DNA from: a virus
Virus record (IMG/VR): IMGVR_UViG_3300006751_000097
Span: 1 to 27,385 of that record
DNA: 27,385 nt
Strand: one strand, 5' to 3'
Both the position numbers and the translations under genes were made by a program. Shown in pieces: positions 3,784 through 27,385 of the stretch. Position 1 is the first letter of the stretch. Each line of letters opens with the position of its first letter. Under the pieces are notes generated by a model, which saw only the letters and a program-made list of their open reading frames with translations, did no database searches and had not been told where the DNA came from.

Positions 3784-3796
3784 GGGGGGGGTAATG
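3784..3796 (+). promoter_or_regulatory. G8 ribosome-binding site at the 3794 start
   Basis: Eight G in a row (3784-3791) preceded by A-rich sequence, then TA and ATG 3794. The distal part of the G-run would pair with the anti-Shine-Dalgarno CCUCC with one G-U wobble; the proximal G would only serve as spacer. Confidence 0.6.
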
Positions 3797-6110: not shown

Positions 6111-7364
6111 ATGGGGGAAAACGTAATAAATCTAAGTAGCAAATATAAGCCGTTGTTCAAGGTCATAGCGGACGACAATATACGCTATGTTCTTATGGAA
6201 GGGGGCAGGGGAAGCGGTAAATCTGTTGCTCTTAGTACCTTTCTTAACCATTTAACGTTTGATGCAAAAAATAAGATATTATTTACACGGTACACAATGG
6301 CATCGGCAGGGACATCGATCATCCCTGAATTTAGGGAAAAAGCGGAATGGTTGGGTAATGAAGATTCGTTTATTTCTACTAAAAGCGAGGTGATTAATAA
6401 AATAACAAATTCAGAAATTATATATCGAGGATTAAAACCTTCTTCAAATACAGCTAATTCTGCCTTAAAATCCGCGAACAACGTCAATATACTAGTACTC
6501 GAAGAGGCACAAGAATGTGCAGATCATGATTTGTTTGAGAGGGTCGATTTTTCTATACGAACAAAGCATAGAAAGAATCTAATAGTGATTGTTTTGAATC
6601 CTATCGATAAGGGGCATTGGATATTTAAGCGATTTTATGATGATAGGGGCAATCGAAGGCGCACCGACACCCTTTATATCAAATCATCGTATCTCGACAA
6701 CTTAAATAATCTTGACGATTCATTTGTAAATATGGCCGAAGAAATGAAAGAATCGAACCCTCGAAAATATGACAATATTTTTATGGGTAATTGGTTATCA
6801 GATGTCCAGGGTGCGTTATGGACATTTAAGATGCTCGATAAGGCAAGAGAGCCACGCAAACTAGGACCATACAAGCGGATTGTTGTTGCTATTGACCCAG
6901 CGGTATCATCGAAAAGGACAAGCGACGAGACAGGAATTATTGTTAGTGGTATAGATACGTTAGACAATCTGATAGTTATCGATGATATCAGTGGGCGATA
7001 TACACCGAACGAATGGGGAAATAAGGCGTTAAACGCGTATTACAAATATGAAGCAGATTGTATGCTAGGTGAGGTCAATAATGGAGGTGATTTGATCGAA
7101 TCAAACATCAAAAACCTAGATCAAAACGTTAAATTTAAGCAGGTGAGGGCGACGCGCGGTAAAATATTGAGAGCCGAGCCGATAGCAGGTCTATACGAAT
7201 CTAATAAGGTATATCACGTAAAAAGATTCCCTGAACTCGATGAACAAATGACCTCGTACACGGGTGATGGTGACGTATCGCCTGATCGTCTCGATGCATT
7301 GGTCTGGTCGCTTACCGAATTAAGCGAACGAAAAAGTGCATTAACGCACTGTATAGTGGTATAA
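6111..7364 (+). CDS. terL: Terminase large subunit (PBSX-like/Terminase_3-type)
   Basis: The 417-residue motor/nuclease shows Walker A GGRGSGKS (31-38), Walker B ILVLEEAQE (127-135), a coupling motif VLNP (161-164), and a C-terminal RNase H-like nuclease with Asp262 in VVAIDPAVSSKRTSDETG, Glu321 in LGEVNNGG and the paired Asp in SPDRLDALVWSL (391-402). The segment GKILRAEPIAGLYESNKVYH is also typical. It translocates DNA into the prohead and cuts it. No ribosome-binding site precedes ATG 6111; coupling to the small subunit is the simplest explanation. Oddly the first codons contain GGGGGA, so a start a few codons later (for example ATA 6126) cannot be excluded. The stop TAA is part of a TATAAT that may be a promoter for the portal gene. 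Confidence 0.95.
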   Translation: MGENVINLSSKYKPLFKVIADDNIRYVLMEGGRGSGKSVALSTFLNHLTFDAKNKILFTRYTMASAGTSIIPEFREKAEWLGNEDSFISTKSEVINKITNSEIIYRGLKPSSNTANSALKSANNVNILVLEEAQECADHDLFERVDFSIRTKHRKNLIVIVLNPIDKGHWIFKRFYDDRGNRRRTDTLYIKSSYLDNLNNLDDSFVNMAEEMKESNPRKYDNIFMGNWLSDVQGALWTFKMLDKAREPRKLGPYKRIVVAIDPAVSSKRTSDETGIIVSGIDTLDNLIVIDDISGRYTPNEWGNKALNAYYKYEADCMLGEVNNGGDLIESNIKNLDQNVKFKQVRATRGKILRAEPIAGLYESNKVYHVKRFPELDEQMTSYTGDGDVSPDRLDALVWSLTELSERKSALTHCIVV

Positions 7365-7365
7365 T
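7357..7365 (+). promoter_or_regulatory. Candidate extended -10 (TGGTATAAT) upstream of the portal gene
   Basis: Perfect TATAAT (7360-7365) with an upstream TG one base away, overlapping the terminase stop codon and 34 bases before the portal start. No good -35 is visible, as is allowed for extended -10 promoters. Confidence 0.4.
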
Positions 7366-7398
7366 TAGACTTATATAGTTGAACTGGGGGGGGGTAAA

Positions 7399-14095: not shown

Positions 14096-14517
14096 CAGGT
14101 TTTAATATATATGAAGTTCAAAAGGCGGTGACAACGGCTTTAAAAGACAATTCAACATTGACGGGAATGTTGGGGAATGGGGTCAATGGCATTCGGGACA
14201 ACGTAGCATCCGCCAAGGGCTTAATTTTCCCATATCTCGCATACACAGACATACAGGCCGAGTCTTTGGATACTACGAGTAGCCAAGGCTCCATTATATA
14301 TATAACCATCACGGCCTTCACTAAAACAGGCAATAAAAAAGAAGCCAGCGACATTATGAAAGCATTACATACCAGCTTGCACCGCTCGGATTTAATCGTT
14401 ACAGGATTTGGTTATGCCATGAGCCGATGGGATGGGTTCAGCACAATCATGCAAGAAGATGTGAACGCCGATATGTTTAGTGGTATAATTAGGTTTAAGA
14501 TAACGCTCGGCGTTTAA
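14092..14517 (+). CDS. Tail completion/terminator protein (DUF3168-like)
   Basis: 141 residues: EVQKAVTTALKDNSTLTGML at the start, IFPYLAYTDIQAESLDTTSS in the middle, then IYITITAFTKTGNKKEASDI MKALHTSLH and a C-terminal SGIIRFKITL. The order (short helix, beta YP-Y-x-x-x-G, I-x-I-x-x-x-x-x-x-G-x-K-E-a, I-x-x-A-L) is that of the DUF3168 tail-terminator fold. Coupled to the gp10-like gene by an ATGA overlap. A TGGTATAAT near its 3' end lies 47 bases before the tail-tube gene. Confidence 0.85.
   Translation: MTGFNIYEVQKAVTTALKDNSTLTGMLGNGVNGIRDNVASAKGLIFPYLAYTDIQAESLDTTSSQGSIIYITITAFTKTGNKKEASDIMKALHTSLHRSDLIVTGFGYAMSRWDGFSTIMQEDVNADMFSGIIRFKITLGV
14481..14489 (+). promoter_or_regulatory. Candidate extended -10 (TGGTATAAT) before the tail-tube gene
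   Basis: TGG followed by perfect TATAAT inside the DUF3168-like gene, coding for S-G-I-I, 47 bases before ATG 14536. Identical nonamer to that upstream of the portal gene. Could be chance codon use. Confidence 0.3.
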
Positions 14518-16960: not shown

Positions 16961-16969
16961 TGCTATAAT
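16961..16969 (+). promoter_or_regulatory. Candidate extended -10 (TGCTATAAT) before the distal tail gene
   Basis: Directly after the tape measure stop; TGC then perfect TATAAT (16964-16969), 24 bases before ATG 16994. The resulting leader would be about 18 bases long and would consist largely of the G8 ribosome-binding site (16983-16990). No -35 consensus seen. Confidence 0.4.
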
Positions 16970-18577: not shown

Positions 18578-21500
18578 CGTAATAGACGATATTTCAAATG
18601 ATGAATTCCTAAGAACAGCCGCTATTTTAGGTGCGACTATAGCGTCAAATGCCATAGCACCTGGGTCGGGTACATTTGTTGCGTTAGGGCTTAGTGCATT
18701 ATTACAACCCGATATAGAATCGTTAGAAATTGATTCTATAAAAAAACAGTTTAGCGGCCTAAAAACAAACACTATCGACAATTTATCCCCGCGTAAAATC
18801 GTGTACGGTCAAAGAACTGTCGGCGGTTCGGTGTTCCATCGGAACACAACAACAAGGGTCGATTACGAACCGATTGAAAGTGACCAGTCAAATGAGTATC
18901 TTCACCAATTCATTGCGATGGTAGGCCACGAATGTGATTCTATGGAGTCCTGTTTTATAAATAATACGCCTGTTACCTTAGATCACAACAACCTGGTTAA
19001 CGAGGAAAAGTTCCGCTCCCCTATTGTTATATCGGGCGAGGAAGTCACACCCAAGATAGACTCATTCCAACCTCCGCCTTCATGGGGGAATGAATTTTGG
19101 CCTTATTCCTGGTTTGACCTATGGAATAAAGATTATTTCATTCTAAATGAAGGGAATATATTAATTAAAGGTCTGCCCGCCAATACGACTTATGATTTTA
19201 CTGGGCAGATAATGACTATCGAAGGGTACACAGAATTTGATTTTAACGAGGATATGGATGTCGCAGCAACGAGATGGGATAATGGATTAGACGACATAGG
19301 ATATTCTAAACTGGAAAACCCGAAAAATGATTTATTTGAGTTTACAATCATAAACTCATTTACTTCAGACTCAGAAGGAAGAGCGACTGTTGTTGTATCT
19401 CATCAGCCACTATTCAATGTTCTCTGGGATATACCAGACTCAGATTCATTTAGTCCGTTCCTGCGACACGGGGTGGCGATTTTTCACGCGCCAGCGGATA
19501 GATACAAAATATGCCCCCGCGTATTCTTTGAGGTTAACGTGGGCTACACAAAGTCAATACGTGTACTCACTAACTTAGGGACAACAACACAAGATGCCTC
19601 ATACGACGCTAATATCTCAGAAGTATATAAGGGGCTTGATTTTGAACTGAATACAGGCGACCCATTCTGTGCTGGAAACTGTTATCTATACACCACAGCC
19701 AGGTATCACCCTGACATTTTCTCTAATATTGGCATTCCTCAGTTTCAAGCCAAAATAAAAGGTAAAAAAGTATACGATACTCGAACCTCAACAACAGCAT
19801 GGAGCCAAAACCCAACACTCATATTATATGATTACTTGACCAATTCGCGCTATGGGCTAGGTGTCACATCTTCGGAAATAGACGTAACTACATTTAATGC
19901 GGCTGCTAACGTCTGCGACGAAGACGTTACAATAACAGATCAATCAACTCAAAAAAGATATGCCTGTGATCTCGTTTTGTTCATGGACGCAGATCATCGC
20001 TCAAATATTCAAAACATACTAGCCACGATGGCAGGTTCTCTTGTCTATACAGAGGGCAAGTATCGAGTATACGCCGGGGCGTGGAATACGCCCACAATAA
20101 AGATTAACGAATCTTGGCTTAACGGGGGAATTAATGTAGTTCCCAAGGAATCGAAACGTGATCTGTTCAATACTGTAAAAGGACTGTACGTAGATACTAC
20201 TGCACAAGACGACTATAACGAGTTCCCTATCGTAACAGATTCAGATTATGTTGAGGCTGATAATGGCGAAGAACTTATAGCAGATTTACAATTTCTAGGC
20301 GTTACGAATGTAGAAAGGGCGCAGCGGTTAGCGAAGATATATTTACAACGGCATCGTTATTCAGAAATAATTACAATGAACTGCAACTATCAGGCGATGC
20401 AGTTATCTGTTATGGATACGGTCTATTTTACAAACGATATTCTTGGATACAGCAATAAATCATATCGAGTTATCGGGTGGACTTTTAATCAAAATGGCGA
20501 TGGCGTTGATTTAACGTTACGCCATGAGACGGCGGATGTCTATGCCTGGACAGATACAGAAGCGACTATACCAACTCCCGCAACCAGCTTGCCTCTACCG
20601 GATTACAACCACGTTCAAATTCCAGGTTCGCCAGTAATAACAGAAGAAATATATAGCACGTCCGACGGATCAGGCGTTAAAACAAAAGCGATTATTAATT
20701 TTTCAGGTAGTGCAGACGCCTTTATCAGCACCTATCAACTCGAATATAAATTAGTGTCGGGGGTAGGCTATAACGTTATGGGTCGTACACAGTCAACGAG
20801 CTTTGAAGTTGCCGATATTAAGGCGGGTAAATACGAGTTCAGGGTGAAGGCGATTAACTCATACGGCGTAAGCTCTGCTTATTCTAGCTCGATCAAAGAG
20901 ATTATAGGACTATCAACACCGCCGGCAGACCTTACGGGTTTTTCGATAAATGTTATTAATAATAACGCTCACCTATCCTGGGATCAGGCGACAGATTTGG
21001 ACGTTAAAATTGGCGGGAAAATATTAATTAGACATACAGCCGACACGTCAAGTCCAAGTTGGGGCAGTTCAATCGATATCATTCCCGCTGTTGGCGGTAA
21101 GGCAACGAGTGTAGTTTCGCCTTTATTAACTGGCTCTTACCTAATAAAAGCGGTTGATAGCTCTAATAACCAGAGCTTAAATGCCGCTATATTAAGTGTA
21201 ACGGTACCGAATATGACAAATTTAAACGTCGTCGCGACTCAAAATGAACACACTGCATATTCAGGCACTAAAACAAATATGGCTGTAATAGATAACACGT
21301 TGAGATTAACGGCGGTTGACCTATGGGACGACATCACTACAAATTGGGACGATATGACGGCTTCATGGGATATTGCAGGTGGGAATGGCATTAATCTTAG
21401 CGGAAGTTATGAATTTTCATCATACACTGACCTAGGCAAGGTTCATACTAGCAGAGTGTCCATTTCACTTGATTGGTCTCAATACGAGGAGGGGAACCTA

Positions 21501-21986
21501 TGGGACGATATTACTACAAATTGGGATGATATGACGGGCTTATGGGACGGCGATGGACAATCTGTTGTGAACATCATCCCTTATATTTCTACTACTAATG
21601 ATGACCCTGGGGGAACCCCGACATGGAGCGATTGGGCTAGGTTTTATGTCGGTGACTTTGTCGCGAGAGCGGTTAAATTTAAGATCGAGGTAGTAAGCAC
21701 CCAAAATAATTTCAATGTTCTTATTAATACATTAAGCGCGAGCGTAGATATGCCTGATCTAGTAGATAGTGGGTCAGTTAGTACAGGGACAGGGGGTGAC
21801 ACGACCGTTAATCTAACCGCTAATTATTTTTCGACCCCACATATAACAGGGACTATCGTTAATGGTGCGTCTGGTGATTACATCGCCATACTTAACCAAA
21901 CAGCGACAAGTTTCGACGTTAGCGTGTATAATAGTAGTAACGCGCGAATCGTTAAAACTATCGTGTGGATGGCTAAAGGGTATTAA
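18570..21986 (+). CDS. J-like tail tip / host specificity protein
   Basis: ATG 18570 gives 1138 residues starting MGNVIDDISNDEFLRTAAIL; a TTG at 18546 would add eight residues but is less likely. The start AILGATIASNAIAPGSGTFV resembles the membrane-like segment before the tip domain, followed by LSPRKIVYGQRTVGGSVFHR, HQFIAMVGHECDSMESCFIN and, further on, NPTLILYDYLTNSRYGLGV and LATMAGSLVYTEGKYRVYAG, all conserved in TipJ proteins of siphophages. Fibronectin III-like domains occupy the later part (SSAYSSSIKEIIGLSTPPAD), then two LWDDITTNWDDMT repeats and the family C-terminus HITGTIVNGASGDYIAILNQ ending VWMAKGY. It contacts the host receptor; the C-terminal half should be host-specific. Confidence 0.93.
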   Translation: MGNVIDDISNDEFLRTAAILGATIASNAIAPGSGTFVALGLSALLQPDIESLEIDSIKKQFSGLKTNTIDNLSPRKIVYGQRTVGGSVFHRNTTTRVDYEPIESDQSNEYLHQFIAMVGHECDSMESCFINNTPVTLDHNNLVNEEKFRSPIVISGEEVTPKIDSFQPPPSWGNEFWPYSWFDLWNKDYFILNEGNILIKGLPANTTYDFTGQIMTIEGYTEFDFNEDMDVAATRWDNGLDDIGYSKLENPKNDLFEFTIINSFTSDSEGRATVVVSHQPLFNVLWDIPDSDSFSPFLRHGVAIFHAPADRYKICPRVFFEVNVGYTKSIRVLTNLGTTTQDASYDANISEVYKGLDFELNTGDPFCAGNCYLYTTARYHPDIFSNIGIPQFQAKIKGKKVYDTRTSTTAWSQNPTLILYDYLTNSRYGLGVTSSEIDVTTFNAAANVCDEDVTITDQSTQKRYACDLVLFMDADHRSNIQNILATMAGSLVYTEGKYRVYAGAWNTPTIKINESWLNGGINVVPKESKRDLFNTVKGLYVDTTAQDDYNEFPIVTDSDYVEADNGEELIADLQFLGVTNVERAQRLAKIYLQRHRYSEIITMNCNYQAMQLSVMDTVYFTNDILGYSNKSYRVIGWTFNQNGDGVDLTLRHETADVYAWTDTEATIPTPATSLPLPDYNHVQIPGSPVITEEIYSTSDGSGVKTKAIINFSGSADAFISTYQLEYKLVSGVGYNVMGRTQSTSFEVADIKAGKYEFRVKAINSYGVSSAYSSSIKEIIGLSTPPADLTGFSINVINNNAHLSWDQATDLDVKIGGKILIRHTADTSSPSWGSSIDIIPAVGGKATSVVSPLLTGSYLIKAVDSSNNQSLNAAILSVTVPNMTNLNVVATQNEHTAYSGTKTNMAVIDNTLRLTAVDLWDDITTNWDDMTASWDIAGGNGINLSGSYEFSSYTDLGKVHTSRVSISLDWSQYEEGNLWDDITTNWDDMTGLWDGDGQSVVNIIPYISTTNDDPGGTPTWSDWARFYVGDFVARAVKFKIEVVSTQNNFNVLINTLSASVDMPDLVDSGSVSTGTGGDTTVNLTANYFSTPHITGTIVNGASGDYIAILNQTATSFDVSVYNSSNARIVKTIVWMAKGY
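21320..21370 (+). repeat. WDD repeat in the tail tip gene, copy 1
   Basis: 51 bases coding for LWDDITTNWDDMTASWD; about 6 differences from copy 2 at 21497-21547, mostly at third positions. It reflects repeated beta-sandwich edges in the C-terminal region of the tip protein. Confidence 0.85.
21497..21547 (+). repeat. WDD repeat in the tail tip gene, copy 2
   Basis: Codes for LWDDITTNWDDMTGLWD, 59 residues after copy 1. Confidence 0.85.
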
Positions 21987-22000
21987 TTTAGGGGGACAAA

Positions 22001-22252
22001 ATGACTAAGAAAATAGAAGATTACAAAAAGGAACGCGGAAAGTTAATAGACTCAATCCAAGTTAAATCCAAAGATATAAAAAAAACAAAATCAGAATTAA
22101 AGAATAAAAAATCAACAGTTGTAGATTCGAAAAAGATGACTGATAATATTTATTTTAATCAAAAAATGATAAAAGAATTAGAATCTCTAAATGATTTTGA
22201 TTCTTATGATATCCAAAAGCTAGAATTAATTAAAAAAGAGGTGGTAAATTAA
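22001..22252 (+). CDS. Small Lys-rich coiled-coil protein
   Basis: 83 residues, strongly charged and probably one coiled coil or hairpin (MTKKIEDYKKERGKLIDSIQ, KSKDIKKTKSELKNKKST). GGGGG precedes ATG 22001, 14 bases after the tip gene, and the stop is directly followed by the tail fibre ATG (TAAATG). Its place between tip and fibre suggests a fibre-attachment or chaperone role, by analogy only. No family recognised. Confidence 0.65.
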   Translation: MTKKIEDYKKERGKLIDSIQVKSKDIKKTKSELKNKKSTVVDSKKMTDNIYFNQKMIKELESLNDFDSYDIQKLELIKKEVVN

Positions 22253-23548
22253 ATGTCACAACATGATTATAACGTAGCCAACCAAGCCTTAAATGTCGCG
22301 AGAACCGACGTAAACAATGCACTTGCGTCTATTTTATCTAATAATAGTGGGTCGAGTGCGCCTACAACAACAGACGCCTACATGGGGTGGGCTGATACCT
22401 CTAATAGCGTATTTAAGCATCGGAATAGTGCCGACAATGACTGGATCACAACCTTCAAATTAGATGGTGTGCAACAATATGCAAGTGGCAGTACAGCCGC
22501 CTTGCCCGCATTTTCAAAAGCGGACGACGTAAACACTGGTATCTACTTCCCCGCAGCCGATGAGATAGCTATATCCGTTGGCGGTGCTGAAGCAGTGCGG
22601 GTGGATTCAGACGGCAACGTGGGGATTGGGACGAGTAGTCCAAATGATAAATTAGATTTAAATTTAGGAAATGTAGCAGGTAACTATATCCGATTTGGAG
22701 GTACAAATCGCAACAATAATGGACTTAATAAACTTTTGAAATTTCATCATGGCTATTGGGGAGGGGCGCAAGAAGTTGCTTCTATTGGGGTTTTAACCAC
22801 GAGTTCAACTGGCGGAAGTGGTACTGGTAATGGAGACCTTGTATTTTATACGGGGTCATCTGGTGATGGTGATGCAGGGTCAACAAGTGCAGAACGCATG
22901 AGAATCGACTCTGCAGGCAACGTTGGGATTGGTATGAGTGATCCAATTTTTCCGATACAAGTCAAGGGTTCTGTTCAGACGGGTGTAGCATCAACGATTG
23001 CTAGTTTGGTGATACCAGATACAACTGGTAATCGAGGTGGATACAGTATCCATAATGACTCTGGGGGACTAATTGGAGGTATTGTAGGAGAAATTGTTAC
23101 GGGTGGGACATATCCCACCTCCGTTGGTAAAATAGATATTTTTGTTCAAAATGGGGGAGGCACGACCAAAGTAATAACGGCAAATTCGTCTGGCAAAGTC
23201 TACATGCCGAGTTTGGGGACGAGTGGGACAAGCGCTGCCTCCATATCAATTACATCATCAGGCGAACTATTCGAGGATACATCATCATTGCAATTTAAAG
23301 AAAAGGTCGAAAACATTAAAATAGATACGAGTAAGTTATTTGATATTAAACCCCGAACGTATATTAGAAAATCATCAGGTTTGGAGGAGGTAGGCTTAAT
23401 TGCGGAGGAACTAGTCGAACTATTGCCGGAATTTGTGGGTTTTAAAAATGACGTTCCTTACTCAGTAAACTATCAAAAGTTAGTTGTTCCTATCATCGCT
23501 GAATTGAAAAAATTAAGGGACAGAATATCGAATATAGAAAAAAAATAA
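22253..23548 (+). CDS. Tail fibre with S74 intramolecular chaperone (self-cleaving) domain
   Basis: 431 residues. The N-terminus (SQHDYNVANQALNVARTDVN) and WADTSNSVFKHRNSADNDWI form the attachment domain common to such fibres. Then come fibre-type repeats with AFSKADDVNTGIYFPAADEI and VRVDSDGNVGIGTSSP, repeated as MRIDSAGNVGIGMSDP. From about residue 343 the Peptidase_S74 chaperone follows: DTSSLQFKEKVENIKIDTSK with the Ser/Lys dyad near S345 and K349, then FDIKPRTYIRKSSGLEEVGL IAEELVELLPEFV and a coiled-coil end. It trimerises the fibre and then cuts itself off. It ends two bases from the stop of the convergent lipoprotein gene. Confidence 0.92.
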   Translation: MSQHDYNVANQALNVARTDVNNALASILSNNSGSSAPTTTDAYMGWADTSNSVFKHRNSADNDWITTFKLDGVQQYASGSTAALPAFSKADDVNTGIYFPAADEIAISVGGAEAVRVDSDGNVGIGTSSPNDKLDLNLGNVAGNYIRFGGTNRNNNGLNKLLKFHHGYWGGAQEVASIGVLTTSSTGGSGTGNGDLVFYTGSSGDGDAGSTSAERMRIDSAGNVGIGMSDPIFPIQVKGSVQTGVASTIASLVIPDTTGNRGGYSIHNDSGGLIGGIVGEIVTGGTYPTSVGKIDIFVQNGGGTTKVITANSSGKVYMPSLGTSGTSAASISITSSGELFEDTSSLQFKEKVENIKIDTSKLFDIKPRTYIRKSSGLEEVGLIAEELVELLPEFVGFKNDVPYSVNYQKLVVPIIAELKKLRDRISNIEKK

Positions 23549-23550
23549 AA

Positions 23551-24462
23551 TTATGGGTTTATGTCTAATAATTCAAAATAGGCTTTCCCGTTGTTGCCGA
23601 CATCATACCGATCAAAATCAAACACAGCATTATTGCCGTCAACCTCTACCCATTGGTTAAAGGGACTCAGGGGGGTGTTAATAATAACTGTTTGTCCCTG
23701 TGGTACGGTGTAGGTTGAATATACATTGTTTTCGTCAACCCCATGGCCTAATAGTCTAATGTTAAGATCGACGTTTCCTACATTTCTAATATTAACACCT
23801 TGGTTGTAAGTCCAAAATATATCCCCTCTTGCGATACCCCCATAAACTCCCGATGTTGTGGTATCCCCTACGCTAATATCCTTCGTGGTTCCACCTACGA
23901 TAAGTTCGAAGGCCGCCACCTTCGCATTAAAAGTAAGCTGATAGGTTGATGATATAGTAGCTTCCCCCTCTGTTATCCCTGTTACGTTAAAAGTGGGCAA
24001 ATGCTCGCCCATGGTTAAGATATCAACGTAACCAATACCATTGATAGCTACCCCATGTTCAATCCCAATGTCGAAAAGTTCAAAGCTAGCGGAATCCCCA
24101 CCATCTAAAACCTGAAAAGTGCTAGGCGTGAACGTAAGATAATTACTTGATGACGTTATACTTATATTATTGATGGCCTCGTCACCGCTATTCCCTATCA
24201 GAAAACTAATAGTGCGACTGGCCTTCAAATTTCCTATTCCGTATGTCTTCTGAACACCATTAGATACAACCGCCTGAGATCGAGCAATATTGTTAGCTGT
24301 TTCTGTTATCCCTTGTGTCTGAGCGCGTACAATAAATGCCCCCGTTGAAGCAGGTTCTGTATCGGATGAGTTGCCAAGACCAACCACATTTTTAAGGGTG
24401 GAACATCCCCCCATGAAAATAAAAGTGAGTAAAACAACTGCGATTTTTGAATAATTTTCCAT
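23551..24462 (-). CDS. Beta-rich lipoprotein, only minus-strand gene (probable moron)
   Basis: 303 residues. The N-terminus MENYSKIAVVLLTFIFMGGC has a short basic start, a hydrophobic core and a lipobox-like MGGC with the lipidated Cys at 20. The mature part is Gly/Ser/Thr/Asn-rich with alternating hydrophobics, consistent with two Ig-like (ASH/choice-of-anchor-like) domains: GIGNLKASRTISFLIGNSGD through VLDGGDSASFELFD, and VNIRNVGNVDLNIRLLGHG through YTVPQGQTVIINTPL. It has its own ribosome-binding site (AAAGGAG 8 bases before the ATG) and its own promoter, faces against all other genes and is flanked by the tail fibre and lysis genes. This is the layout of phage morons expressed from a prophage or early in infection, for example lipoproteins that block the phage receptor. 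The actual role is unknown. Confidence 0.85.
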   Translation of the reverse strand: MENYSKIAVVLLTFIFMGGCSTLKNVVGLGNSSDTEPASTGAFIVRAQTQGITETANNIARSQAVVSNGVQKTYGIGNLKASRTISFLIGNSGDEAINNISITSSSNYLTFTPSTFQVLDGGDSASFELFDIGIEHGVAINGIGYVDILTMGEHLPTFNVTGITEGEATISSTYQLTFNAKVAAFELIVGGTTKDISVGDTTTSGVYGGIARGDIFWTYNQGVNIRNVGNVDLNIRLLGHGVDENNVYSTYTVPQGQTVIINTPLSPFNQWVEVDGNNAVFDFDRYDVGNNGKAYFELLDINP

Positions 24463-24492
24463 CTCTAACTCCTTTTTTCGTTGTGTAAATGA

Positions 24493-24523
24493 ATTATATC
24501 ATGATTTTATAGGCTATTCACAA
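24493..24523 (-). promoter_or_regulatory. Promoter of the lipoprotein gene (divergent pair, minus strand)
   Basis: Read on the minus strand: TTGTGA (complement of 24518-24523), a 19-base spacer and TATAAT (complement of 24493-24498) preceded by TGA, an extended -10. Transcription would start about 24 bases before the lipoprotein ATG. The spacer is longer than ideal but the extended -10 is perfect. Confidence 0.65.
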
Positions 24524-24544
24524 CGCTGTATTTAATGATATAAT
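24517..24544 (+). promoter_or_regulatory. Promoter of the lysis operon (divergent pair, plus strand)
   Basis: TTCACA (24517-24522, five of six to TTGACA), 16-base spacer, then TATAAT (24539-24544) preceded by TGA. Transcripts should begin near 24551. The -35 elements of this and the minus-strand promoter overlap by five bases. Confidence 0.65.
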
Positions 24545-24550
24545 AAATTG

Positions 24551-24646
24551 CGTCAGGGGAGGTTTTATTTCGTTAATAAAACTGTCGCCACGGCTATCTA
24601 CTGCGGAGTGCTAGGGGGTATGCAGTAGTAGGGGGGGGTATATTCT
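24551..24646 (+). promoter_or_regulatory. Structured 5' leader of the lysis operon
   Basis: About 95 bases without a gene between the likely transcription start and ATG 24647. It holds two hairpins: GTTTTATT/AATAAAAC (24562-24569 with 24575-24582, 5-base loop) and CTACTGC/GCAGTAG (24598-24604 with 24622-24628, 17-base loop), then G8 (24631-24638) as ribosome-binding site. The sequence TAGGGGG-TAT occurs in the second loop and again, with G8, at the ribosome-binding site. A role in delaying lysis gene translation is conceivable but inferred. Confidence 0.5.
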
Positions 24647-25102
24647 ATGTTAATTTCGGAAAAAAGTAATTTTTTTAAAAAACATGAAATTAGAGTGTCG
24701 TCAAAATTTCCTGATTTAGCGTCGCGGATACAGCTCAAAGCCAAGCATGTAGATATAGCTGCATTATTAGTCGACTCCGTATTGCATCCGCTACGTGTTC
24801 GTTTCGGCGCCTGTTCAATCGATTCATGGTTGCGCAGCGAAGAGCTGAATAGGCAGGTGGGTGGATCGAAAGACAGTGACCATCTTCACGGAAATGCGGT
24901 AGACCCGCGGTTTAACAATAACATCGACCCGTTAGCGGTTTTCAAGTACATATACGAATCTAAAATGCAAACACGGCAATGCATTATATATATGTATAAA
25001 AAGCCAATACAATTACACGTATCAATTAATATCCCCGGTCGAGAATATAAAAATGACTTTCTCTTATCGTATGAACCGGGCAAATATGATTTTTATGATT
25101 AA
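24647..25102 (+). CDS. M15-family peptidase endolysin
   Basis: 151 residues. The M15A-type zinc site is visible: GGSKDSDHLHGNAVDP with His79 and Asp86 (pattern S-x-H-x-x-G-x-A-x-D), and His124 in IQLHVSI. The preceding LVDSVLHPLRVRFGACSIDS and WLRSEELNRQVGG correspond to the conserved pLR..fg..i..S..RS.elN..vGGs block. The enzyme would cleave peptide bonds in peptidoglycan cross-bridges. No signal peptide, so it needs a holin. First gene of the lysis cassette, behind its own candidate promoter and a G8 ribosome-binding site, which lies 8 bases from the ATG. Confidence 0.9.
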   Translation: MLISEKSNFFKKHEIRVSSKFPDLASRIQLKAKHVDIAALLVDSVLHPLRVRFGACSIDSWLRSEELNRQVGGSKDSDHLHGNAVDPRFNNNIDPLAVFKYIYESKMQTRQCIIYMYKKPIQLHVSINIPGREYKNDFLLSYEPGKYDFYD

Positions 25103-25481
25103 ATTTTTATTTACATTTTTAAAAGAAATTATTAAGATTACAACTCAATATCCTGTTATTCGAGGCGTATTAATGAAAGCAATTCTATCATCGCGAATTA
25201 AAAAAGCGCTTAAACAAAATCCTATTACCACTATCCAAAATATAAAAGATAGCGGGAACTTAAGGAATATTGTAACACACTCTATTTCTGAAATAGTTGA
25301 CGCAGAAGATATCAACCTCACCCTTAAAAATATAAATAAGGACACCGTCTTTTTTAAGGGGGTTTCCATTTCGAAAAAAAATGACGATTTTAAATTGAAA
25401 ATTGGCGATAATACAGTGAATTATAATTTGAAAACAAAAAAAATTCACTGGCCAGACTATAGCGCCATCTGTAATAAGTAA
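25086..25481 (+). CDS. Hypothetical lysis-region protein with N-terminal hydrophobic segment
   Basis: The frame is open from 25053; ATG 25086 or 25095 (131 or 128 residues) are the likely starts, overlapping the end of the M15 gene, with GGGCAAAT upstream. The start MIKFLFTFLKEIIKI could be a signal anchor or amphipathic helix. The rest is Lys/Asn/Ile-rich, with a beta-like C-terminal half (VFFKGVSISKKNDDFKLKIG, TVNYNLKTKKIHWPDYS). No family recognised. Place between endolysin and other lysis genes suggests an accessory such as an endolysin regulator or spanin-like protein, without direct support; no lipobox is present. Confidence 0.5.
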   Translation: MIFMIKFLFTFLKEIIKITTQYPVIRGVLMKAILSSRIKKALKQNPITTIQNIKDSGNLRNIVTHSISEIVDAEDINLTLKNINKDTVFFKGVSISKKNDDFKLKIGDNTVNYNLKTKKIHWPDYSAICNK

Positions 25482-25482
25482 G

Positions 25483-25965
25483 ATGATTAAAATACATTTT
25501 TATTCCGCGAAGTGGTATTTGCCGCTTGGCACACTAATCAAAACTAAGACAAATAGCAGATTCTCTCATTGTGCGATTGAATTACCTCACGACAATATTA
25601 TACGGCACTCGCGCATTGGTAGCGGGGTTACTCATGATTTAATTCATTACACCAGGCCAACGAAAACCTTGTTTCTACCTTTTGATGAAAAATCAAAAAA
25701 GGGAAAGGATTTTATTAAACTTTTAGGCTCGAAGGAAGGGTGCGGATACGATTATTTAGCTTTATTTTTCGGTTGCTGGGGAAAAAAAATACACGACAAA
25801 GATCGCTATTTATGTTCGGAATTCTGCTCGTTATATATAACGGAATACTTGAATATTGTACCTGACATTAAGACTATCTTTGTACCTAAAGATTTATATT
25901 TGTTTTTACGGGGTTATATCAAAGGATATAATCAGATCAAGAATCATGCAGACAACGAGGGTTAG
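25483..25965 (+). CDS. YiiX/YebB-like permuted NlpC/P60 (papain-like) enzyme
   Basis: 160 residues beginning MIKIHFYSAKWYLPLGTLIK, with SRFSHCAIELP (His29 in the SHxAI motif) in the N-terminal third and RYLCSEFCSLY (Cys111, CSEF motif) in the C-terminal half. A His-first, Cys-later order with GCGYDYLALFF between them is that of circularly permuted NlpC/P60 proteins of the YiiX/YebB type, which include amidase- or acyltransferase-like enzymes. FPxDL-type end (FVPKDLYLFL) is also shared. Many phages carry such a gene in or near the lysis cassette. Substrate (peptide, lipid or cell wall) is unknown. Starts one base after the upstream TAA. Confidence 0.8.
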   Translation: MIKIHFYSAKWYLPLGTLIKTKTNSRFSHCAIELPHDNIIRHSRIGSGVTHDLIHYTRPTKTLFLPFDEKSKKGKDFIKLLGSKEGCGYDYLALFFGCWGKKIHDKDRYLCSEFCSLYITEYLNIVPDIKTIFVPKDLYLFLRGYIKGYNQIKNHADNEG

Positions 25966-26167
25966 AGTAGCAGAGACACTTGTTACCCTGATTCATGACA
26001 ACATATCTAACGTTATGCTCATAGTAATTGCTACGAATTCATATAATATCCCCTTAATAACATCAATCAAATTATGGATACTGGGACAATCGCTTAATGT
26101 AACATTCAGCTATACCCGTAGATATTTATTTTCGAAATACGATTCCAAATTAAATCGGGTTTTTTAA
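25946..26167 (+). CDS. Small hypothetical protein before the holin
   Basis: ATG 25946 overlaps the end of the preceding gene by 20 bases and the frame ends with TAA at 26165-26167, overlapping the holin ATG as TAATG. The 73-residue product (MQTTRVRVAETLVTLIHDNI and on) is basic with a hydrophobic middle (NVMLIVIATNSYNI and ITSIKLWILG). It fills an otherwise empty 200-base gap, and coupling at both ends supports it. The frame is open further upstream but only inside the other gene. No family recognised; a small membrane-associated lysis protein is possible. Confidence 0.45.
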   Translation: MQTTRVRVAETLVTLIHDNISNVMLIVIATNSYNIPLITSIKLWILGQSLNVTFSYTRRYLFSKYDSKLNRVF

Positions 26168-26556
26168 TGTTGTTTTCGAAAATCATTAGTGCAGGTGCGG
26201 GCGATTTGGTCAAAAGTGTAGGGGGCGTTTTAGATTCTTTAACGACAACTGAAGAAGAAAAACTCGATGCCGAGCGAAAAATTAAGCAGTTAATATGCGA
26301 TCACGAAGAAAGAATGCAACAGAATGTAACTGACAGATGGTCAGCCGATATGAAGTCTGACTCGTGGCTATCTAAGAATATCCGACCGCTAGTCTTGATT
26401 TTTCTCGTCGTTTCTACTGTTTTATTAATATTCATCGATTCGGGATTAATTAAATTTCACGTTAAATCTTCGTGGGTTGATCTATTGCAGTTAGTATTAA
26501 TCACTGTTATAGGTGCTTACTTTGGCGGGCGAAGCCTGGAAAAAGTTAAAAAATGA
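26167..26556 (+). CDS. Holin, gene-transfer-agent 3TM type
   Basis: 129 residues. AGDLVKSVGGVLDSLTTTEE EKLDAERKIKQL at the N-terminus (an amphipathic, charged helix) and SDSWLSKNIRPLVLIFLVVS form the signature of the GTA_holin_3TM family (PF11351), with the W-x-x-K/R-N-x-R-P motif before the first clear membrane segment (about 73-91) and a second at about 104-120 ending in FGGRSLEKVKK. It would make the inner-membrane lesion that releases the endolysin. Coupled to its neighbours on both sides (TAATG and ATGA). Confidence 0.9.
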   Translation: MLFSKIISAGAGDLVKSVGGVLDSLTTTEEEKLDAERKIKQLICDHEERMQQNVTDRWSADMKSDSWLSKNIRPLVLIFLVVSTVLLIFIDSGLIKFHVKSSWVDLLQLVLITVIGAYFGGRSLEKVKK

Positions 26557-26963
26557 AAGAGGCGGACGCCAGCTTCACTAATCTGCTGGTGTCTGTAACT
26601 AAGCTACAGTCGGACGTTCAATATATCATCGGAGTGGTCAATCAGAGCAAGACCGAATGGCACGAACACCGAAAATTAGGCATCAGTCATTACATGACTA
26701 ATAGCACAGCGCAACTGAAAGAAATTAACGAAGATTTAGCAACAATTAAAAAAGATATAAAAAAAAATAACGAGGCTTACGATGACTTGTCCAACAAAAT
26801 CAAATGGATTAATTTCGAATTGAAAAGTTACCGCTGGTCAGCCTTGTTAATATTTATTTTAGCTTTATTCATTCGAGCCAGGTACATAACCTTCCATATT
26901 GAGGCCGAAAAAATAATCCCTCTTTTTAGTTTTTATGGGTCGGATATTTTTTTCGTTTCGTAA
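26553..26963 (+). CDS. Coiled-coil protein with C-terminal membrane segment, lysis accessory
   Basis: 136 residues. The N-terminal half has SDVQYIIGVVNQSKTEWHEH, the middle a coiled coil (LKEINEDLATIKKDIKKNNE), and residues about 95-108 (WSALLIFILALFIR) a single membrane helix, followed by a 28-residue tail. The build (soluble coiled coil then TM) resembles XhlA-type lysis proteins, though the tail after the TM is longer. It starts within the holin stop (ATGA) and is the last gene of the cassette. Antiholin, holin partner or spanin-like function are all possible. Confidence 0.65.
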   Translation: MKEADASFTNLLVSVTKLQSDVQYIIGVVNQSKTEWHEHRKLGISHYMTNSTAQLKEINEDLATIKKDIKKNNEAYDDLSNKIKWINFELKSYRWSALLIFILALFIRARYITFHIEAEKIIPLFSFYGSDIFFVS

Positions 26964-26967
26964 ATAC

Positions 26968-27013
26968 AAAAGGCTCACCGTCGAGGGGGGAGGTGACAAA
27001 TTATGAGCCTTTT
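26968..27013 (+). terminator. Large hairpin at the end of the lysis operon
   Basis: AAAAGGCTCA (26968-26977) and TGAGCCTTTT (27004-27013) form a perfect 10-bp stem with a 26-base loop holding GGGGGGAGGTGACAA; an inner CACC/GGTG pairing is an alternative. The arms end in A4 and T4, so it can work as a bidirectional terminator for the late operon. A small ORF has its start in the right arm. Confidence 0.65.
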
Positions 27014-27053
27014 ATATAAGTTATCGAAAAAAATAAAAAAAAATTTCAGTTAA
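27003..27053 (+). CDS. 16-residue basic peptide ORF in the terminator hairpin
   Basis: GGGGGGAGG (26985-26993) lies 9 bases before ATG 27003, an excellent ribosome-binding site. The peptide MSLLYKLSKKIKKNFS is basic and amphipathic. The A of the ATG is the last loop base and the TG pairs in the stem, so translation would compete with hairpin formation. It may be a real small gene or a coincidence of a G-rich loop. Confidence 0.3.
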   Translation: MSLLYKLSKKIKKNFS

Positions 27054-27086
27054 TTTAAAAATATAAAAGGGAGCACCATTTCACAA

Positions 27087-27275
27087 ATGCAGAATGGAAT
27101 TAAAAAAAATAAAAAAAAACGTTCTTTCGGATCAGCAAAAGGAGAATTTAAATTAAAAGAATCTTTTAATGCCCCAGTAGGGGCGTGTAATTTTTATGAC
27201 AATATAATGACTAAATTAAAACATGTTAAACCAGGAAAAAAATTCACTAGAAACGAGATGAATGACAGAAAATAA
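27087..27275 (+). CDS. Small basic hypothetical protein
   Basis: 62 residues: a very Lys-rich start (MQNGIKKNKKKRSFGSAKGE) followed by a more structured GACNFYDNIMTKLKHVKPGK KFTRNEMND. GGGAG at about 27069-27073 lies 13 bases upstream, longer than usual. The second half looks like a small conserved domain, with a motif of the type VKPGKxFTRxE as in short DNA- or RNA-binding phage proteins, but I recognise no family. It is the first gene after the late-operon hairpin and may open the next transcription unit. Confidence 0.5.
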   Translation: MQNGIKKNKKKRSFGSAKGEFKLKESFNAPVGACNFYDNIMTKLKHVKPGKKFTRNEMNDRK

Positions 27276-27303
27276 AGAACATTAATCTTTTTGCAAATTT
27301 AGG

Positions 27304-27357
27304 AACGTGATCACCCTATTTTAAAGAGTATTAGGGAACCACAAAAACACGTTTTTT
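27304..27357 (+). terminator. Possible terminator at the window end
   Basis: AACGTG (27304-27309) can pair with CACGTT (27348-27353), enclosing an inner CCCTA/TAGGG stem (about 27314-27318 with 27332-27336), and a T6 run (27352-27357) follows. The internal loops are large, so the structure is weak. Nothing else is visible in the last 110 bases. Confidence 0.25.
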
Positions 27358-27385
27358 GAGGCTAAATTTTAAATATAGCGGGACA

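Follow-up and report, generated by a model that had tools for sequence, protein, structure and literature searches.

Two opposed promoter-like sites lie between a lipoprotein gene and the lysis operon in a 27,385-nt sequence of an uncultured phage (IMG/VR record IMGVR_UViG_3300006751_000097, positions 1 to 27,385, called the window below). The question raised by this locus is whether the two sites form a switch between a quiet (lipoprotein-on) and a lytic state, as proposed in a first-pass annotation, or are promoters of a common type. The pair is probably real and of the ordinary kind rather than a quiet/lytic switch. The best reading, which is considered likely, is that of two ordinary host-sigma70-type promoters placed back to back, one serving a moron-like lipoprotein unit and the other the start of the lysis operon. 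The feature would be of a known kind, and a clean example, kept in one relative, of opposed extended -10 promoters between a phage lipoprotein gene and a lysis operon. No paper on a divergent promoter of the phage lipoprotein/lysis type was found in searches of an open-access library.

Gene arrangement around the promoter pair

The late operon of the window (terminase, portal, capsid, tail and fibre genes) is read rightward and ends at 23548 with the tail fibre gene (22253-23548, + strand). The stop of the fibre gene lies 2 bp from that of the convergent lipoprotein gene (23551-24462, - strand), which encodes a protein of 303 aa and is opposed to the fibre gene in the list of open reading frames. 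A divergent intergenic region of 184 bp (24463-24646), delimited from the same list and the sequence, separates the lipoprotein gene from the endolysin gene (24647-25102, + strand). The endolysin, a peptidase M15 (PF08291, phrog_894), is encoded by the first gene of the lysis operon, and the holin gene (phrog_3427; 26167-26556, + strand) follows in the same operon, downstream of the endolysin and further small genes. No terminator candidate was found on the + strand from 20000 to 27168 in the terminator scan, so late transcripts may run antisense through the lipoprotein gene into the lysis genes.

Thirty proteins of the window and its relatives, which included a subset of the window reading frames, were scanned against PHROGs in three sets of 10. 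Neither an integrase nor the phage repressor for which the first-pass annotation had proposed a search was found among these 30 proteins from incomplete records, and no regulator gene flanks the promoter pair, the neighbours of which are the lipoprotein and endolysin genes. The only recombinase among the scanned proteins is a DNA invertase in the relative G001 (L094:16171-16722, - strand; phrog_125, E = 2.9e-73), which suggests that an invertible DNA segment exists in this group of phages. The G001 contig ends inside a tail gene, before the region considered here, and is without the promoter DNA, the M15 gene and the gene of a 160-aa lysis-operon protein.

The lipoprotein gene was identified in two other contigs. 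The close relative G002 (contig IMGVR_UViG_3300038433_000808, which also appears as loci L002, L003, L085, L089, L091, L093 and L096) covers the whole region. In the distant relative G003 (contig IMGVR_UViG_3300027801_000484, locus L004), the lipoprotein shows 50% identity, and its gene is opposed to the end of a fibre gene and divergent from a lysis-type gene. The latter is an open reading frame of 140 aa (L004:7367-7789, - strand) that resembles an NlpC/P60 hydrolase by eye, and an M15 search of G003 was negative. The lytic enzyme thus appears to have been exchanged beside a retained divergent lipoprotein gene, although the NlpC/P60 likeness (as opposed to M15) was judged by eye. The layout of fibre gene, opposed lipoprotein gene and rightward lysis gene is found in all three lipoprotein-carrying contigs (window, G002 and G003).

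The two promoter-like sites and their conservation

The first-pass annotation described ATTATATCAT (24493-24502) and ATGATATAAT (24535-24544) as exact inverted copies that contain two -10 elements, and both the letters and the coordinates proved correct. The extended -10 element TGATATAAT occupies 24493-24501 on the - strand in the lipoprotein arm and 24536-24544 on the + strand in the lysis arm, and the sigma70 consensus of an extended -10 (TGnTATAAT) is matched exactly at both sites. The 10-bp inverted repeat therefore amounts to little more than one extended -10 consensus present twice, and its ungapped extension gives 15 nt at 87%. The overlap of the two -35-like hexamers was also described correctly, since they have five bases (24518-24522) in common within TTCACAA (24517-24523). 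The hexamer TTCACA (24517-24522, + strand) is separated from the lysis -10 by 16 bp, a spacing that falls within the 16-18 bp of a -35 and is kept in L002, whereas TTGTGA (24518-24523, - strand) is 19 bp from the lipoprotein -10, or 20 bp in L002. The description of the pair as mirrored is thus valid for the 10-bp arms but not for the spacers.

An extended -10 element can dispense with a -35. Because the spacing of its -35-like hexamer is 19 bp in the window and then 20 bp in the relative, the lipoprotein promoter is probably of the extended -10 type and has no true -35. The hexamer TTCACA probably serves the lysis promoter alone as its -35, the shared box being used by one promoter. Transcription starts are predicted from the positions of the -10 elements, 7 bp past each, at 24551 (+ strand) toward the lysis genes and at 24486 (- strand) toward the lipoprotein gene.

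A promoter scan of the whole 27.4-kb window (scores of at least 10, spacers of 15-19 bp) listed 24 promoter-like hits. The + site (TTCACA-16-TGA-TATAAT) has 11 of 12 hexamer matches and a score of 12, the highest of the 24, and is the top of 19 sites in the interval 20000-27385. The - site has a score of 11 and is tied with two sites without TGn. A perfect TGnTATAAT is present in only these two of the 24 listed hits. All sites were scored against the sigma70 consensus, recognition of the promoters by the host polymerase being assumed.

Scores as high as those of the + and - sites were reached in 0.1% and 1.0%, respectively, of 1000 shuffles of the 184-bp intergenic region, and a divergent pair of TGnTATAAT elements 20-60 bp apart was found in one of 500 dinucleotide shuffles; these frequencies apply to a pair that had already been picked out from the sequence in the first-pass annotation. 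The window has seven perfect inverted repeats of 10 bp whose gap is at most 40 (mean 1.45 and largest value 6 in 40 shuffles). The motif TGnTATAAT occurs five times, compared with a shuffle mean of 2.6. The three other copies are all on the + strand (7357-7365, 14481-14489 and 16961-16969), end 34, 47 and 25 bp upstream of gene starts, respectively, and are found in every relative covering them. Together with the copy at 24536, the four + strand copies all have the next start within 103 bp, as do 15% of positions (0.0005 if independent), where the gene starts used were the authors' selection from the list of open reading frames. The copies at 7357, 14481 and 16961 may represent further late promoters of this kind, of low strength.

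Comparison of the region in related phages, which had been suggested as a check, gave complete identity of the element blocks and their adjoining bases in L002 (44 of 44 positions). This figure comprises the leftward -10 arm (10/10) and seven bases downstream (7/7), TTCACAA (7/7), and the rightward -10 arm (10/10) and ten bases downstream (10/10). The two spacers are identical at 11 of 14 positions (with one gap in addition) and at 9 of 11 (20 of 25 together, with five changed), and the lysis leader at 59 of 92 aligned bases. Owing to the gap, the leftward spacer is 20 bp rather than 19 bp in L002, and the rightward spacer is still 16 bp. Conservation sits on the promoter elements, which is the pattern expected of promoters, and selection on the two promoters is likely on the evidence of this relative; the comparison covered one close and one distant relative. 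When viral contigs were scanned with a promoter pattern, only the contig of L002 matched. The corresponding gap of G003 contains TTTACA-17-TATAAT twice in the lysis direction, and 2.1% of shuffles reach that score. The leftward candidate of G003 is weak (score 9), and 22.6% of shuffles reach a score of 10 or more.

Polymerase competition and alternative readings

In the preferred reading of two ordinary promoters, TTCACA-16-TGaTATAAT would start an mRNA near 24551 that carries a structured leader of roughly 96 nt followed by the lysis operon. This promoter would be a local start that supplements read-through from the late operon. In the other direction, a promoter of the extended -10 type, with at most a poor -35, would start a lipoprotein mRNA with a short leader near 24486. 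The first-pass annotation stated that RNA polymerase can bind only one way at a time. This statement is acceptable insofar as the geometry, with predicted starts about 65 bp apart, implies that the footprints of polymerases on both promoters would overlap, and a strong promoter could lower the other; exclusion of one by the other is unsupported. Competition between the promoters would be at most partial, without an all-or-none switch. Whether competition between polymerases matters for promoters so arranged could be tested simply with this pair.

A first alternative, regarded as improbable, is that only the lysis promoter is real, whereas the lipoprotein promoter is incidental and the lipoprotein mRNA has another start or is not made. 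Such a reading would fit the - site, the -35-like hexamer of which is out of register in both phages, and the unremarkable leftward site of G003. It does not fit the identity of the extended -10 arm and its seven flanking bases in L002 (17/17), nor the lipoprotein gene itself, which is intact in three contigs, needs some promoter and is preceded in the window by a good ribosome-binding site (GGAGTTAG).

The mutual-exclusion switch of the first-pass annotation, in which a polymerase bound one way blocks the other and lipoprotein-on and lysis-on are alternative states, is equally improbable. The -35-like boxes overlap in the window, and a five-base overlap of TTTACA and TTGTAA in TTTACAA is also present in G003, but the overlap in G003 lies in very AT-rich DNA, where the leftward score is common in shuffles. 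The lipoprotein -35 is out of register (19 bp, then 20 bp), the promoters are without an adjoining regulator, and late read-through is not blocked by any + strand terminator candidate between 20000 and 27168. The switch is unsupported and was rejected as the best reading.

Known divergent promoters are also informative on this point. Five bidirectional promoters of E. coli are reported to show no competition at basal activity, competition being seen only after a strong increase on one side (PMC12825309), which argues against a switch. Their divergent sigma70 starts, clashing footprints and possible competition when one side is strong are shared with the present pair. However, they have tighter overlap, one common symmetrical -10 and starts 10-23 bp apart, whereas the -10 elements here are separate and the predicted starts are about 65 bp apart (PMC12825309). 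The Pc and Pr promoters of pLS20 resemble the present pair in being overlapping and divergent, with one polymerase at a time. The switch of pLS20 is reported to work through the regulator Rco, which is made from one promoter and has opposite effects on the two, together with very unequal promoter strengths and DNA looping (PMC4207663). No regulator acting oppositely on two promoters was seen here among the 30 scanned proteins from incomplete records.

The suggestion that the inverted repeat could be an operator, with ATTATATCAT/ATGATATAAT bound by a repressor of phage or host origin that turns off both promoters, is slightly less probable again. The arms are 100% conserved in L002, and the window contains 16 sequences that match ATGATATAAT at all positions or at all but one, compared with 6.7 in shuffles and 7.3 when the motif is permuted (16 is reached by 25 of 1000 permutations). 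However, the arms coincide with the extended -10 elements, which already account for the repeat and explain its conservation, and some of the one-mismatch copies lie inside genes or at start codons (e.g., 2996). The operator was rejected as the best reading on the grounds that the arms are extended -10 elements, that their spacing is off by one base in L002, and that no repressor was found among the 30 scanned proteins. As doubtful as the operator is a lysis-timing device, in which a constitutive sigma70 lysis promoter would be held down early by polymerase on the opposed lipoprotein promoter and by the structured leader (with its covarying hairpin and G-run ribosome site) and released as late transcription passes through the region, and which, if true, would couple an early exclusion lipoprotein and late lysis through one 184-bp DNA element.

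Lipoprotein unit, lysis leader and other sites

The lipoprotein carries a signal peptide with a lipobox (...MGGC) recognised by eye, and a hydrophobic N-terminus followed by Gly-Cys is found in all three homologues. No family was detected in PHROGs or Pfam at E 0.001, and no credible one in Pfam or NCBIfam at E 10. The predicted structure (mean pLDDT 43.6) was too poor for use. A profile search returned only the two already known contigs from viral contigs and none from genome contigs.

The cultured distant relatives CRP-831 and HTVC202P have no opposed gene between the tail proteins and the M15 peptidase, and for this reason the lipoprotein unit looks like an insertion. It resembles a moron in that it is opposed to the late operon, has its own promoter-like site and is absent at that place from these two relatives. 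The comparison is incomplete because no convincing terminator of the lipoprotein gene was found, the sole candidate being a weak stem within the end of the gene (23639-23624). In phage lambda, the bor gene lies beside the lysis genes. An independently promoted Salmonella prophage gene that is antisense to lytic genes has been reported in a transcriptome study, which calls such a region characteristic of morons (PMC7067206). The present unit is like the moron loci STMMW_20121 of prophage ST64B and lambda bor in having a (here putative) promoter of its own opposite the late operon, and bor likewise encodes a lipoprotein, located in the outer membrane (PMC7067206). Unlike those loci, it is accompanied by no lysogeny genes recognised in the scanned proteins, and its product, without a family match, is not recognisably Bor.

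Superinfection exclusion by the lipoprotein is only a guess by analogy. An envelope lipoprotein encoded convergently to the fibre gene may act at the receptor as an exclusion factor, and it is the position beside the fibre gene that led to the comparison with exclusion lipoproteins. Many phages are reported to express exclusion proteins early, and T5 Llp is likewise a phage-made lipoprotein, called small, compared with 303 aa here (PMC9586334, PMC12685063). The comparison with T5 Llp and Rtp45 drew on their published descriptions (PMC9586334, PMC12685063) and on the family searches, in which no family was detected.

The predicted lysis leader contains two candidate hairpins on the + strand. 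The first (H1, 24559-24583) has the core GTTTTATT/AATAAAAC, was recognised from RNA folds and as an inverted repeat, and has a longer stem in L002. The second (H2) was recognised by comparison of the window with L002 and has a 7-bp stem (24598-24604 with 24622-24628). Seven of its bases differ in L002, where 7 of 7 pairs are kept and 3 of 7 are changed on both sides. A random-substitution null gives 0.0016 for this covariation, whereas a two-row shuffle control equals the observed value in 68 of 500 cases, the comparison being one of two sequences. In the best predicted fold of the window the register of H2 is shifted by three bases, which makes the covarying register an alternative there. The leader folds with ordinary energies in the window (z = -1.3) and L002 (z = -1.5), and that of L004 forms a different, stronger hairpin (z = -4.1). 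These results do no more than suggest an RNA element ahead of the lysis gene, with a hairpin that possibly covaries. No Rfam match was obtained at gathering scores, and one match was at chance level (E = 1.7).

A run of eight G (24631-24638, + strand) occupies the Shine-Dalgarno position of the endolysin gene. Runs of 6-9 G are found at the ribosome-binding position at 3784, 7386, 14525, 16983 and 24631 (all + strand). The + strand contains 14 runs of six or more G (mean 5.3 and largest value 14 in 200 shuffles) vs one run of six or more C. The run at 7386 is G9 in the window and shorter in G001. In this little-studied phage group, lysis may be subject to translational control, as hinted by the hairpin in the leader and the runs of G at ribosome-binding positions.

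A search of viral contigs with the holin yielded 598 loci, the best 80 of which (L005-L084) show 67-77% identity. The other 13 window proteins were not found by tblastn in these best 80 loci, save for a weak M15 piece in L068, which indicates that the holin travels separately. On this sequence evidence the holin is widely exchanged, and the 80 loci were dropped from the comparison of homologous regions. In genome contigs the holin was detected at 28 loci from many phyla, and no host was assigned from them.

Downstream, an inverted repeat (AAAAGGCTCA/TGAGCCTTTT, 26968-27013) surrounds an ATG and a purine-rich stretch that resembles a ribosome-binding site; the repeat is also terminator-like. 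Elsewhere in the window, the protein encoded at 4747-5613 matches phrog_842, labelled beta-glucosyl-HMC-alpha-glucosyltransferase (E = 4.4e-70), and its gene adjoins a ParB-like gene.
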